NCBI GenBank assembly: GCA_031253835.1
Contig: JAIRVP010000039.1
Location: forward strand, 124,001-188,000
DNA from: Burkholderia sp.
GTDB lineage: Bacteria; Pseudomonadota; Gammaproteobacteria; Burkholderiales; Burkholderiaceae
Length of the DNA stretch: 64,000 bases
Reading direction: 5' to 3'
Position numbers and translations under genes: made by a program. Shown piece by piece: positions 40,610-61,250 of the stretch (position 1 is its first letter; each line of letters opens with the position of its first letter). The notes under the pieces were generated by a model. The model was given only the letters and a program-made list of their open reading frames with translations, did not search any database and was not told the DNA's origin.

Positions 40610-41959
40610 TTACCGCCCTGCGGCGTGGGTATCCCATGCGATCCGGTCGAACAGCGTACGCAGCTTCGCGCCGCGTGCCGCATTCAGCGCGGCGGCATGT
40701 GCGACGCGTCCGGCGAGATGCGCGCGGAAATCGGGATGCGCGTCCCGGTTCTGCGAGGCCGGGCCGTGCCGGATGCAGTTGGTCAGGATGGCCTTCAGGA
40801 GATCGAACTCATCGCGCGCCAGGTTCGGGTGGCGATTGACGACCACGCCGGCCAGCTGCTGGCGCGACCCGCGCCGCATCACGCGCGTCTTGCGCAGCTG
40901 CAGCGCGAAGCCCTCCTCGAGCGCGAGCGCGGCAACCCTGATCTGCAGCCGCTCGACGTTGCGCGCCAGCGCGCCGCCGCCCGAGAACGCGAGATCGTCC
41001 GCATAGCGCGTGTAGGTCGCATCGAGCGAACGCGCGAGCGCGGCGAGCCGCATGTCGAAGCGGAACGCGCACAGGTTCGCGAGCGCCGGCGACGTCGGCG
41101 CGCCCTGCGGCAGATGCCGTTCGCGATAGCGCTGGCGGCCGATCCAGTCGAACCGGTCGCGCAGGTCCGCCGCGAGCAGCCGTGCCGACGGCACGCGGTT
41201 CGTGCACAGCCCGGTGAGCGTGCGCGCGACTTCGGCCGGATACCCGAGCGTGGCAAACAGCGCATGGACGCGTGCGGCGCGCACCGACACGAAGAAATCC
41301 GCGAGATCGAAGCGGACGACGACATCGCGATCGGCATGCGGCGCCGCGAACGACACGATCCCGTGGCCCTTGCGAAAACCGTGCACCGCGCCGTGCGGCG
41401 CGATGCGATCGAGCAGCCCGTGCAGGACGCGGCGCTGCGCTTCGCGCAGCCTGCCCTTCGGGATCTCGACCAGCCGGCACCCGCCGCTGCGCTTGTCGAC
41501 CGCGACGTACGTGTAGTGATGCAGCGGCGCGGCGCTGCTGCGCGCGTCGACGCGCCAGTGATCGGACAGCCAGTCGAGCTCCGGCACGCTCACGCCGAGC
41601 CAGCCGGCGAGATCGCCGGGCGTCGCCCACTGCGGCACGTCGCAGCCGGCGAGCGGTGCCGGCAACGGTCGCTGGACCGGCAGCCGCCGCACGACGCGGA
41701 TCACGGCCGGCCGAGGGTCGCCGTACCACGCACGCACGAATCCGGGCGCGTCGGCCACGACGGCTGCAAGCGCGTCGATGGCGGTGTCGGCCCAGTGCGC
41801 ACCGAAGCGCGCGAGCGATGCATCCGCGACTTCATGTGCCCAGACCGGCGCGTCGCCGAGCACGGCCGCCATCCGTGCGACGACGCCGTCGCGCTCGGGC
41901 GATCCGGCAAGCATCGCCTCGGCAATCGTGCGGGTGGTGTCGCGCAGGGATGAGTACAT
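40610..41959 (-). CDS. Retron-type reverse transcriptase
   Basis: A 449-residue RNA-directed DNA polymerase. Residues 1-145 are an N-terminal extension. The polymerase core follows: CRLVEIPKGRLREAQRRVL, HGFRKGHGIVSFAAPH (in the place of the retron NAxxH motif, FAAPH204-208), VRFDLADFF, LPQGAPTSPALANL (283-296) and TRYADDLAFSG with catalytic Y319-A-D-D322. The thumb contains LAGVVVN, where many retrons have VTGLVVN, and LLKAILTNCIRHGP. Myxobacterial retron enzymes such as the Mx162 one are also about 480 residues long with an extended N-terminus. Start at 41959; a longer frame from 42070 would run through the predicted RNA. It primes from the retron RNA and makes branched msDNA. Confidence 0.9.
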   Translation of the reverse strand: MYSSLRDTTRTIAEAMLAGSPERDGVVARMAAVLGDAPVWAHEVADASLARFGAHWADTAIDALAAVVADAPGFVRAWYGDPRPAVIRVVRRLPVQRPLPAPLAGCDVPQWATPGDLAGWLGVSVPELDWLSDHWRVDARSSAAPLHHYTYVAVDKRSGGCRLVEIPKGRLREAQRRVLHGLLDRIAPHGAVHGFRKGHGIVSFAAPHADRDVVVRFDLADFFVSVRAARVHALFATLGYPAEVARTLTGLCTNRVPSARLLAADLRDRFDWIGRQRYRERHLPQGAPTSPALANLCAFRFDMRLAALARSLDATYTRYADDLAFSGGGALARNVERLQIRVAALALEEGFALQLRKTRVMRRGSRQQLAGVVVNRHPNLARDEFDLLKAILTNCIRHGPASQNRDAHPDFRAHLAGRVAHAAALNAARGAKLRTLFDRIAWDTHAAGR

Positions 41960-41971
41960 GGCCAGGAATGG

Positions 41972-42137
41972 GCGGGACGATGAGTCAACGTGGCTGGTGC
42001 TGCGAGGGGATACGTTGCGCAACGCGAAACCGGGCCCCTTGCGACGCATCGGTGTGTCGATCCGATCCACGGGGTAGCCCCGTGGTCCTGGAACTTCGGC
42101 TGCCAGTTCCGGGTGTGTGCTTGACCCACCGGCCCGC
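41972..42137 (-). ncRNA. Predicted retron msr-msd RNA
   Basis: A 166-nt structured element directly upstream of the reverse transcriptase. The a1 arm, GCGGGCCGGTGGGTCAA (42137-42121), pairs with the a2 arm, TTGACTCATCGTCCCGC (41988-41972), at 16 of 17 positions counting two G-U pairs. An AGC at 42121-42119 ends a1, so the presumed 2'-5' branch guanosine is 42120, placed as in Eco1 (Ec86). Two msr hairpins follow: GGAACT/AGTTCC (42110-42090) and an 8-bp perfect stem CCACGGGG/CCCCGTGG with loop CTA (42085-42067). The remaining part before a2 includes a weaker stem (AGGGG/CCCCT) enclosing CGTTGCGCAACG and is the probable msd. The exact msd ends cannot be read from sequence alone. Confidence 0.75.
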
Positions 42138-42143
42138 GTCGCG

Positions 42144-42173
42144 ACTGTAATCGGCGCGCACGCCGGGTGTCAA
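42144..42173 (-). promoter_or_regulatory. Promoter of the retron RNA
   Basis: TTGACA at 42173-42168 (perfect -35), an 18-base spacer and TACAGT at 42149-42144 (-10, four of six). Initiation 6-7 bases further falls at 42137, exactly the first base of the a1 arm, which supports both calls. Confidence 0.65.
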
Positions 42174-42248: not shown

Positions 42249-42821
42249 TTACACGCCCCGCGCGAACAGCGCGCTGTACGCGATCGGCGCGACGCCGATC
42301 CCTGCCATGCCGCTCAGCATCGTCGCCCAGGTCGCGTCGGCCACGCTGACCGGAAACGACCGCACGCGATTGGCGAGCAGCCAGAAGGTCCGCGTCATGC
42401 CGTCGCTCATCGCGACCTCGTACCCGCTTCCCGCCGGCCAGTAGCCGACCGGCGGCAGCGGCACCGGCGCCTCGCGGCCGCCCCGGAACGCGGCGGCGGC
42501 CATCGCGAACTTGCTGTCGAGCGGCATGGCCCGGCGCGGTACGCAGTCCTGCGAATCCTGTTTCGGGAACGCCGGGCTCGTTTCGAGCCAGCGGCGATAG
42601 AACGCCTCGGCGTCGAGATGGACGACGAAACGCTCCACCCCGCCCGGCTCGGCCGCCAGATAGCAGTCGACCTGGCCGGGCACCGGCACGCGCCAGATCG
42701 CGCGCTTCGCGCTCTGGTCGACCAGTTCGCACGCCGTCGGCCGGAGCGAGATGGTTGAAGCGGCTCCGGACTCGCGCAAGTCGCGCGCGCGGTCGAGTCC
42801 GTTACGAAGACGTGTCAGCAT
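42249..42821 (-). CDS. Putative fertility-inhibition-like protein next to the retron
   Basis: A 190-residue protein without a signal peptide. AGGAG lies 7 bases before the ATG. The middle and C-terminal part (VDCYLAAEP, LDAEAFYRRWL, VAMSDGMTRTFWLLANRVRSFPVSV) recalls the plasmid fertility-inhibition (FiwA-like) family, whose members contain DGRHRTxWLRxHG...lPV-like segments; this is a weak, by-eye match. Its stop lies 112 bases before the retron a1 arm on the same strand. It may be the retron's partner or an unrelated neighbour. If the family match holds, an anti-conjugation role would fit a defence locus. Confidence 0.6.
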   Translation of the reverse strand: MLTRLRNGLDRARDLRESGAASTISLRPTACELVDQSAKRAIWRVPVPGQVDCYLAAEPGGVERFVVHLDAEAFYRRWLETSPAFPKQDSQDCVPRRAMPLDSKFAMAAAAFRGGREAPVPLPPVGYWPAGSGYEVAMSDGMTRTFWLLANRVRSFPVSVADATWATMLSGMAGIGVAPIAYSALFARGV

Positions 42822-59116: not shown

Positions 59117-60238
59117 TCAGCCGTCGACCGGCGCCAGCTCGTAACTCGTGCTCCGGCCTCCGGACGACGAACGGCGCAGCACGCCGTGCTCGACGAGTTC
59201 GGTGATGTCGCGCAGCGCGGTGTCCTGCGAGCACTTCGCGAGGGCCGCCCACTTGGTCGTCGTCAGCTTCCCCTCGAAACCGTCGAGCAGTCGATTCATC
59301 ACCTTGACCTGGCGTGCGTTCATCGCGAAGCCCGCACAGCGCTGCCAGAAGCGCGCCTTGATCAACACCGCGTCGAGCGTCGCGTGCGCGTGATCGATGG
59401 CCCTGCCCAGCGCATCCAGGAACCACGCAAGCCATTCCGTGACGTCGAGCGAGCCGCGCTGCGTGCGCTCCAGCACGTCGTAGTACGCGTTGCGCTCGCG
59501 CTGGATCTGCGCCGACAGGCTGTAGAAGCGCTGCGGACTCCGGTCGGCGCGTGCCAGCACCAGATCGCCGAGCGCCCGCGCGATCCGGCCGTTGCCGTCG
59601 TCGAACGGGTGGAGCGTGACGAACCACAGATGGGCCAGGCCGGCCCGGATCAGCAACGGCTCGGCCGGTTCGGCATTGAGCCACGCGAGCAAGCGTGCGA
59701 TCTCGTGCGTCAGGCGCGCGGCCGGCGGCGCCTCGACATGCACGCGCTGCCGGCCGATCGGCCCGGACACCACCTGCATCGGCCCGCTTGCATCCGTCCG
59801 CCATCCGCCGACCGTGATGCGCGACAACCCCGAATAGCCGGTCGGGAACAGCGCCGCATGCCACCCGAACAGGCGGGCGTCGGTGACCGGCGCCGCCGCA
59901 TGGGTCGTCGCATCCAGCACCATGTCGACGACGCCCTCGACGTGACGGTCGACCGGCGCCAGTGCGCCGATGTCGACCCCGAGCCGGCGCGCGATCGACG
60001 AGCGGATCGAAGCGACGTTCAGCGTTTCGCCCTCGATCGCGCTGGTCTTGACGACGTCCTCCGTCAGCGCGGCCAGGCTGGCCTCGTCGCGCAGCGCGAG
60101 GCCGACATCGGCCAGCCGCCCGGCCAGCATGCCTTGCGCACGGCTGACGTCGGCCAGCGACGTGGCGAGTGCCGGGAGGTCGAAGCGCCACGCCGGCCAG
60201 TCGGCCGACTCCCAGATGAATGTGTAATCTCCGCTCAT
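59117..60238 (-). CDS. DUF4172-Fic family protein with C-terminal winged helix
   Basis: A 373-residue Fic AMPylator-like protein. Residues 1-80 are the DUF4172 domain (FIWESADWPAWRFD) and include the inhibitory motif T65-S-A-I-E69-G70 ([S/T]xxxE[G/N]), which blocks ATP binding in class II enzymes. The Fic motif is H210-P-F-D-D-G-N-G-R218, complete and presumably active. Residues 300-373 form a winged helix (KLTTTKWAALAKCSQDTALRDITELVEHGVLRR). Fic proteins transfer AMP from ATP to target hydroxyls. Two matching palindromes at its start and upstream suggest autoregulation by the C-terminal domain. Target unknown. Confidence 0.92.
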   Translation of the reverse strand: MSGDYTFIWESADWPAWRFDLPALATSLADVSRAQGMLAGRLADVGLALRDEASLAALTEDVVKTSAIEGETLNVASIRSSIARRLGVDIGALAPVDRHVEGVVDMVLDATTHAAAPVTDARLFGWHAALFPTGYSGLSRITVGGWRTDASGPMQVVSGPIGRQRVHVEAPPAARLTHEIARLLAWLNAEPAEPLLIRAGLAHLWFVTLHPFDDGNGRIARALGDLVLARADRSPQRFYSLSAQIQRERNAYYDVLERTQRGSLDVTEWLAWFLDALGRAIDHAHATLDAVLIKARFWQRCAGFAMNARQVKVMNRLLDGFEGKLTTTKWAALAKCSQDTALRDITELVEHGVLRRSSSGGRSTSYELAPVDG

Positions 60239-60251
60239 GATGCGGAGATTA
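60225..60251. promoter_or_regulatory. Fic operator palindrome 1, over the start codon
   Basis: TAATCTCCGC and its perfect reverse complement GCGGAGATTA around TCATGAT. The centre contains the Fic start codon. It shares its CTCCGC core with palindrome 2, so the same protein probably binds both. Confidence 0.7.
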
Positions 60252-60276
60252 TCCCACCGATTCGCCGCATGATTCA

Positions 60277-60305
60277 TTATTCTCCGCAAATTATGCGGAG
60301 AATAA
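60277..60305. promoter_or_regulatory. Fic operator palindrome 2, upstream
   Basis: A 12-bp arm TTATTCTCCGCA and its exact reverse complement around a 5-base centre (AATTA). It lies 38 bases upstream of the Fic ATG, at or near the expected promoter, and 52-53 bp centre to centre from palindrome 1, about five helical turns. Confidence 0.75.
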
Positions 60306-60332
60306 GCGCGCGATTCACCGCACGCCGGCCGG

Positions 60333-61250
60333 CTAGCGCGTCCGGCCCGCGCCGCGCTTGCCCGGCGGCGGCGCGTCGCCGAGCCGCTCGGCAAGAAACC
60401 CGATGAACGTGCGCAGCGTGACGAACCCTTCCCGATGCTGCGGAAACACCGCATTGAGCGTGATCGGCGGCGGCACGTACGCGTCGAGCACCGGCACGAG
60501 CGCGCCGCCGTCGAGCGCCGCGCCGACGATGAAGTGCGGCAGCAGCGCGATGCCGAGCCCCGCGATCGCCGCGTCGCGCACCACTTCGCCGTTGTTCGCG
60601 ACGAGCGGCCCCTGCACGTCGAACATGCGCAACGTGCCGTCGACGCGGAATTCCCAGCCGACGCGCCGCTCGCGCCCGTACAGCAGGCACGTGTGACCCG
60701 CGAGGTCGGCCGGTGTCTGCGGCGTGCCCTGCCGCTTCAGGTACGCGGGGCTCGCGCACGCGATCATCCGCCACGCGCCGAGCGGGCGCGCGATCAGTGT
60801 CGAATCCTCGAGCGAGCCGATCCGCAGCACGAGATCGAAGCCTTCGCCGATCAGGTCGACGCGCCGGTCGGTCAGGTCGAGGTTCAGCCGCACGGCCGGG
60901 TGCGCGGACAGGAATTCCGCGATCAGCGGCGACACGTGCGTGATCCCGAACGACAGCGGCGCGCTGATCTTCAGCGAACCGTGCAGCTCGGTGCTGCGCA
61001 CCGACATCGCCTGCTCGGCGTCGGCGATCTCCGCGAGGATCCGCTGCGCACGCGCATAAAACTCCTGCCCCGATTCGGTCACCGCGAGATTGCGCGTGTT
61101 GCGGTGCAGAAGCCGCACGCCGAGCGACGCCTCCAGCGCCATCGTGCGCCGGCTGACGAACTGCTTGGACAGCATCAGCTGGTCGGCCGCCGCCGTGAAG
61201 CTGCCCGCATCGACGGTCGCGACGAAGATCCTCAGGTCGTTGATTTCCAT
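60333..61250 (-). CDS. LysR-family transcriptional regulator
   Basis: A 305-residue LysR regulator. The HTH is ATVDAGSFTAAADQLMLSKQFVSRRTMALEASLGVRLLHR, and LHGSLKISAPLSFGITHVSPLIAEFL begins the effector domain, a pattern common in regulators of pirin, quinone or drug-response genes. GGAG lies 8 bases before the ATG at 61250; an upstream GTG is less likely. It is divergent from the pirin gene, with 127 bases between, so regulation of pirin and wrbA is likely. Its stop lies 94 bases upstream of the Fic start, and palindrome 2 lies between. Confidence 0.92.
   Translation of the reverse strand: MEINDLRIFVATVDAGSFTAAADQLMLSKQFVSRRTMALEASLGVRLLHRNTRNLAVTESGQEFYARAQRILAEIADAEQAMSVRSTELHGSLKISAPLSFGITHVSPLIAEFLSAHPAVRLNLDLTDRRVDLIGEGFDLVLRIGSLEDSTLIARPLGAWRMIACASPAYLKRQGTPQTPADLAGHTCLLYGRERRVGWEFRVDGTLRMFDVQGPLVANNGEVVRDAAIAGLGIALLPHFIVGAALDGGALVPVLDAYVPPPITLNAVFPQHREGFVTLRTFIGFLAERLGDAPPPGKRGAGRTR

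Follow-up and report, generated by a model that had tools for sequence, protein, structure and literature searches.

We analyzed a 64,000-nt stretch of DNA from Burkholderia sp. (contig JAIRVP010000039.1, positions 124,001 to 188,000; hereafter the window) and found on its minus strand a 166-nt RNA element followed by a reverse transcriptase (RT) gene, which together very probably constitute a retron (rough probability 0.85). The element has an msr-msd organization, lies beside the RT gene and is closed by two pairing arms, a1 and a2, with a conserved guanosine directly after a1, and the RT is of the retron type with a YADD motif. The pair is most likely a stand-alone two-part retron with a multicopy single-stranded DNA (msDNA) of approximately 60–65 nt. 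The features of the RNA were as follows.

42144..42173, minus strand: promoter, with a -35 box TTGACA (42173-42168), an 18-nt spacer and a -10 box TACAGT (42149-42144)
42121..42137, minus strand: arm a1, the 5' arm of the closing stem, identified by pairing and covariation
42120, minus strand: presumed branch guanosine in an AAGC context; the G is kept in homologues, and the branching is predicted
42090..42110, minus strand: msr hairpin 1, present in the sequence and the predicted fold and covarying in distant loci
42067..42085, minus strand: msr hairpin 2, of the CGGGGnnACCCCG type, present in the sequence, the predicted fold and the covariation model
42002..42042, minus strand: msd stem-loop, with an outer part (42042-42035/42009-42002) and an inner part (42029-42024/42020-42015)
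41991..42053, minus strand: probable RT-DNA template of approximately 63 nt, with putative start and end
41972..41988, minus strand: arm a2, the 3' arm of the closing stem, 12 nt ahead of the RT start codon

The RNA at the window locus

An initial annotation, made from the sequence alone, had described two 17-nt arms pairing at 16 positions (14 Watson-Crick and 2 G-U), two hairpins (42110-42090 and 42085-42067), and a TTGACA/TACAGT promoter that places the transcript start on the first base of a1. Recomputation gave the same pairing count, with a C-U mismatch at the remaining position, and both hairpins were present in the sequence and in the predicted fold. The promoter was the sole sigma-70-like site between 40400 and 43000 (mean of 0.2 in shuffled sequences), and transcription, expected to begin approximately 7 nt past TACAGT, would start near 42137. 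The msd stem-loop corresponds to helices 4 and 5 of the 30-sequence model and to helices 5–7 of the 61-sequence alignment described below. The template start at 41991 was placed by analogy with Retron-Eco1, in which we take two unpaired bases to precede a2. When the 166-nt element was folded as a single sequence, the z value was -1.98, and 8 of 200 shuffled sequences folded equally well; single-sequence folding is weak as proof, and relatives were therefore compared.

The RT frame is open upstream through the entire RNA (41960-42169, minus strand); a 519-codon open frame was present in 29 of 44 Burkholderia rows and, judged by its length, ends at a TGA within the -35 box. An Rfam search gave nothing at the gathering score. 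Three Rfam matches on a 351-base stretch (E 3.3–5.6) were judged to be chance, as was a match at 60196-60337 of the window (E 0.014) in a scan with the RNA model. The Burkholderia small RNA ncS35, likewise 166 nt long (PMC5760752), is a different RNA, and two primers printed in the available portion of that paper were missing from the window.

Conservation of the RNA in Burkholderiaceae

Alignment A2 comprised 30 of the 52 distinct Burkholderiaceae sequences, those at least 95% alike having been removed, and was made with plain MAFFT rather than by fitting to a model. RNAalifold, supplied with no structure, drew the closing stem, both msr hairpins and an msd stem in two parts from these sequences. 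In the resulting 42-pair model, 98.2% of 1256 cells were paired, compared with 39–46% when the partners were slid by 1–3 columns, and double changes were found in 14 of the 42 pairs versus 5.8 in shuffled alignments. The G after a1 was present in 30/30 sequences, and the arrangement TTGACA-N16-19-TAnnnT was found at 77/77 Burkholderiaceae loci where the RT was near-complete, a count that includes near-duplicate records.

The RNA was detected in 43 of 65 Burkholderia genomes, always directly upstream of an RT of the same family as that of the window and never without one. All but one of the 44 genomes carrying a substantial family RT had the RNA, and it was found in 0 of the 21 others; the 44 is a count of rows, and the scan tally of 48 takes in weak matches to other RTs. 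The exception was genome G048, which had a family RT matching only from residue 110 and in which the RNA was not found. Genome G058 contained, at the usual site, a decayed copy (L168/L045), consisting of two RT fragments between H-NS-family and AspA-like genes, at which the RNA and a plasmid fertility inhibition (PFIN) family gene were looked for and not found; elsewhere this genome carried a type II-A-like retron RT (L047). Six similar RT genes on G017:C1 weakly matched the window RT and are perhaps group II introns.

The RNA in distant bacteria

Among the best 80 of 570 confirmed loci in a genome scan, 69 lay outside Burkholderiaceae, and a search with the 30-sequence model found the RNA beside the RT in 61 of these at E ≤ 3e-4. 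By label, the 61 loci belonged to seven phyla: Planctomycetota (19), Acidobacteriota (13), Pseudomonadota (12), Actinomycetota (7), Verrucomicrobiota (5), Myxococcota (2), and Thermodesulfobacteriota (1), with two unlabelled. Single phylum labels may err because most of the distant loci come from metagenome-assembled genomes; by record titles, Planctomycetota, Verrucomicrobiota, and Thermodesulfobacteriota were represented only by metagenome-assembled genomes or uncultured isolates.

Analysis of the 61 sequences (alignment A4) revealed double changes in 38 of 42 pairs, with 556 double-change cells versus 144 in shuffled alignments, and pairing in 95.5% of cells versus 70.0% in shuffled and 38–47% in slid controls, although these pair counts are biased toward the model structure, the rows being fitted to it. 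All 16 a1/a2 pairs showed double compensatory changes, the msr hairpins were paired in 88.1% (helix 3, hairpin 1) and 99.0% (helix 4, hairpin 2) of cells, and the G after a1 was present in 61/61 sequences. RNAalifold applied to the A4 rows drew 38 pairs, 34 of them with double changes. Chance origin is disfavoured by this covariation across 30 and 61 sequences.

For 60 of the 61 RNAs, the end falls in the range from 156 nt ahead of the extrapolated RT start to 35 nt past it, and the RNA of L111 ends inside the RT, where the RT match starts only at residue 107 or 108. Two of the eight sub-threshold loci (L072 and L100) lacked upstream DNA, five (L070, L079, L120, L127, and L128) gave weak hits where the RNA would be expected (E 0.002–0.05), and L124 gave one with an E value of 0.22. 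RNA model R1 gave no match at E ≤ 1 at other retron-type RT loci (L046–L048 and L158–L160), and no match was obtained with the RNA model at E ≤ 0.05 at loci of genomes without a family RT. In three family members outside the genus (L153, L155, and L156), the RT match was partial or split, but the RNA nevertheless scored 132–154 bits.

These comparisons bear out the central expectations of the initial annotation. Pairing of the arms in homologues, set in advance as a check, held in the distant loci; the G presumed to be the branch point was invariant in both sets of sequences; the promoter recurred throughout Burkholderiaceae; and a template of approximately 52–63 nt, with putative start and stop, fits the short msd that had been proposed. 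The claim of a strong msr-msd prediction is thus well supported by covariation and co-occurrence with the RT. Going beyond that account, the RT group extends far more widely than Burkholderia, a linked effector gene was not found in the loci examined, and the NAXXH and VTG motifs of the RT are altered.

The reverse transcriptase and its relation to known retrons

The RT gene and its N-terminal domain occupy the following positions.

40610..41959, minus strand: RT of 449 amino acids plus stop, with YADD intact, identified by Pfam RVT_1, PADLOC and the AlphaFold2 model
41720..41959, minus strand: N-terminal helical domain (residues 1–80) with five helices, from the predicted structure

RVT_1 was the sole Pfam domain above the cut-off in the window RT. 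The best PADLOC model was RT_other (5.2e-146, 485.6 bits), followed by RT_outgroup and then RT_XIII (305.9 bits), and the 25 best models listed were all retron types. RT_other and RT_outgroup were the best models for all five members scanned (the window RT, L059, L079, L105, and L116), but these models carry no type. The AlphaFold2 model of the window RT had a mean predicted local distance difference test score (pLDDT) of 92.4, and its nearest solved folds were retron Ec86 (template modelling score of 0.80–0.83 by target length), Eco2 and Eco7. DRT2 and DRT9, of the defence-associated RT (DRT) type, were not the closest RT class by fold: retron RTs came ahead of group II, DRT2, diversity-generating retroelement and DRT9 enzymes, and each of the 18 retron chains listed outranked both DRT2 (rank 21) and DRT9 (rank 28). 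The ratio of nonsynonymous to synonymous substitution rates (dN/dS) was 0.15–0.21 for ten Burkholderia pairs (L002–L028) and 0.31 (L037) and 0.36 (L031) for more distant pairs, calculated from ungapped sequences, so that the L031 and L037 values may be inflated by indels.

Alignment A5 comprised 57 rows with near-complete RTs, and N-terminal conservation in it is biased toward such RTs. YADD was present in 57/57 rows. At the place of NAXXH, N was found in 2/57 rows (F in 36 and Y in 8) and H in 57/57, and at the place of VTG, the counts out of 57 were 10 for V, 9 for T and 56 for G, LAG being the commonest form. According to the portion of PMC6868368 consulted, NAXXH (region X) occurs in 14/16 verified retron RTs, Ec48 and Mx65 being without the N, and VTG (start of region Y) likewise occurs in 14/16, Vc81 and Ec48 departing from it. 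Since these enzymes also depart, both motifs are typical of retron RTs rather than defining.

The fragment model of residues 1–80 showed five helices with a pLDDT of 92.5. Foldseek with this domain gave nothing at E ≤ 0.001, its sequence profiles gave nothing convincing against the PDB (best E 0.03), no Pfam family matched more than 2 of 36 members, and a second copy in the genome was looked for with no convincing match (next E 0.01). The domain could still be an effector of an unfamiliar kind.

A quick tree of 33 rows placed the 28 family RTs in one group with modest support (SH-like approximate likelihood ratio test 82; two outgroup rows long). The nearest group consisted of three RT_XIII-type Myxococcus RTs, and the family did not group with RT_XIII itself. 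The Myxococcus qinghaiensis genome contained four retron-type RTs (L157–L160): L157 is a family member at the same place as L079, and L158–L160 match RT_XIII best. L158, of the RT_XIII type, has a long extension at its N-terminus, and L160 and L159 are presumably Mx162 and Mx65, judged by sequence and length.

The family resembles type XIII, Mx162 and Mx65 in having a long RT with an N-terminal extension. It differs from them in forming a separate group in the tree, in having PADLOC RT_other and RT_outgroup scores far above RT_XIII, and in its RNA, which model R1 did not find at type XIII loci. With Retron-Eco1 (Ec86) it shares the retron RT fold, the AGC directly after a1 and the msr-msd-RT order; Eco1 differs in its canonical motifs and in its linked effector. 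For the family, the linked or fused effector that marks tripartite defence retrons (types I–XIII) was not found in the loci examined. Mx65 is also like the family in lacking the N of NAXXH and in having a GAGC branch site, according to the consulted portion of PMC6868368. Retron-Bth1 is likewise described, in the part of PMC12548924 available, as having no apparent effector gene, whereas it consists of one element, located on an extrachromosomal assembly, and a group II intron interrupts its RT. In a literature search, whose scope did not take in the main retron survey (Mestre et al. 2020), no description of this RNA was recognised; the word "retron" had a count of 0 in the accessible portion of PMC4603805.

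Genomic neighbourhood, replicons and viruses

The common order in Burkholderia is a PFIN-family gene, the RNA, the RT, an H-NS-family gene and a major facilitator superfamily (MFS) gene. In the window, the PFIN-family gene (42249-42821, minus strand) lies directly upstream, as it does at many, not all, Burkholderia loci. Approximately 8 kb separates the H-NS-family gene from the RT in G035 and G032, and on pBPJTT of B. pyrrocinia, SDR oxidoreductase and D-Ala-D-Ala carboxypeptidase genes flank the RT. An all-against-all comparison of 83 loci for a recurrent partner gene yielded a widest open reading frame (ORF) family present in only six loci. Neighbouring genes were scanned at 13 of 18 listed loci, 11 of them outside Burkholderiaceae (of 69 such loci), and 15 of the 20 ORFs had a Pfam match, mostly to unrelated metabolic, regulatory and transport families, including TetR, CobW, zinc dehydrogenase, ABC transporter, M28 peptidase, FtsX and AMP-binding. 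At L054, a gene resembling a type VI secretion system (T6SS) lipase effector lies 635 nt from the RT on the opposite strand.

The retron had been called chromosomal in the initial annotation, a description that needs care: among relatives, the locus may be on a record titled chromosome 3 (L049) or on records filed as plasmids (three records). A megablast search of 72,556 plasmid records gave five matches, three of which hold most of the stretch and are Burkholderia replicons of 0.88–1.26 Mb.

Among INPHARED phages, 18 records matched the RT, none over 80% of its length and with identity of at most 34.5% in the ten rows listed. Of 382 matches among viral contigs, the best 80 had at most 37% identity, and none aligned from before residue 88. 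No family member was seen among the phage matches listed or among these best 80 viral matches. The msd had no second match in the genome beyond scraps of approximately 20 nt, and antisense regulation of one target is therefore unlikely.

Proposed mechanism and alternative explanations

We infer the branching, the msDNA with its ends, and the function as follows. Transcription from the element's own promoter would start at a1 and cover both the 166-nt RNA and the RT gene; a1 and a2 would pair, and the RT would bind the msr hairpins, prime on the 2'-OH of G42120 and copy the msd as far as the base of the msr. The predicted product is a branched msDNA of approximately 60–65 nt forming one long hairpin. 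We regard the RT-msDNA particle as probably the entire working unit, because only the RNA and the RT were seen kept together. Its output may pass through the N-terminal helical domain of the RT or through a host protein encoded elsewhere, and anti-phage sensing is a first guess for the function. A bolder reading, tentative and at somewhat less than even odds, is that of an old retron class complete with two parts and lacking a separate effector, present in up to seven phyla and, among the matches examined, seen on no virus; its msDNA would govern the five-helix domain at the N-terminus of the RT or some general function of the host.

Several observations weigh against a stand-alone retron. The family departs from the NAXXH and VTG motifs that retron RTs typically carry, and the single-sequence fold is only modestly better than shuffled sequences. 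The six weak distant loci are no better than reverse-strand echoes (best 0.0004), their matches being suggestive by position only. A small or fast-changing partner gene could escape mechanical ORF calling, five of the 20 neighbouring ORFs were without a Pfam match, and there is the T6SS lipase effector-like neighbour at L054.

Two other accounts concern function only and are compatible with the retron identity. The msDNA might serve the host in gene regulation, DNA repair or replicon upkeep rather than in phage defence. The constant site among PFIN-family, H-NS-family and MFS genes in many Burkholderia, the otherwise ordinary neighbours, the purifying selection on the RT and the absence of family members from the viral matches examined are consistent with such a household role. 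However, the RNA is missing from 22 of 65 Burkholderia genomes, which makes the element dispensable, and the lack of a second msd match beyond short scraps speaks against simple antisense action; we regard this account as possible but rather unlikely. Slightly less likely still is a tripartite retron whose toxic effector is encoded elsewhere and held inactive by the RT-msDNA until phage infection. Known retron effectors adjoin the RT or are fused to it, and an unlinked effector would need to travel with the retron across great distances. Such an arrangement would nevertheless agree with the finding that no adjacent gene recurs in the loci examined, and retrons are typically composed of an RT, an RNA and a toxic effector, according to the part of PMC12548924 consulted.

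Two further explanations would replace the retron altogether. In a DRT-type system, the RNA would be a partner of the RT copied without 2'-5' branching, as in DRT2 and DRT9, which by their entry titles were solved with non-coding RNA; the lack of a literal NAXXH and VTG in the RT would fit. The order of closing stem, invariant G, msr hairpins and msd stem is nevertheless retron-like, and both the fold ranking and the best PADLOC models listed favour retron enzymes over DRT2 and DRT9, so that we consider such a system improbable. Even less credit can be given to a structured leader that regulates RT translation and is not a template. The short distance from a2 to the start codon and the RT frame open through the element in many species point that way, whereas the msd stem between the arms covaries as strongly as the arms themselves, and the G after a1 is invariant in 91 sequences.

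Significance

The untyped RT_other/RT_outgroup enzymes gain a well-supported RNA template, together with a covariance model able to find it. The results point to a retron lineage kept across great distances without the linked toxin of most studied retrons. If the two-part reading is true, the natural role of effector-less retrons becomes directly testable. The compact RNA-RT pairs from several phyla are candidate DNA-writing tools.
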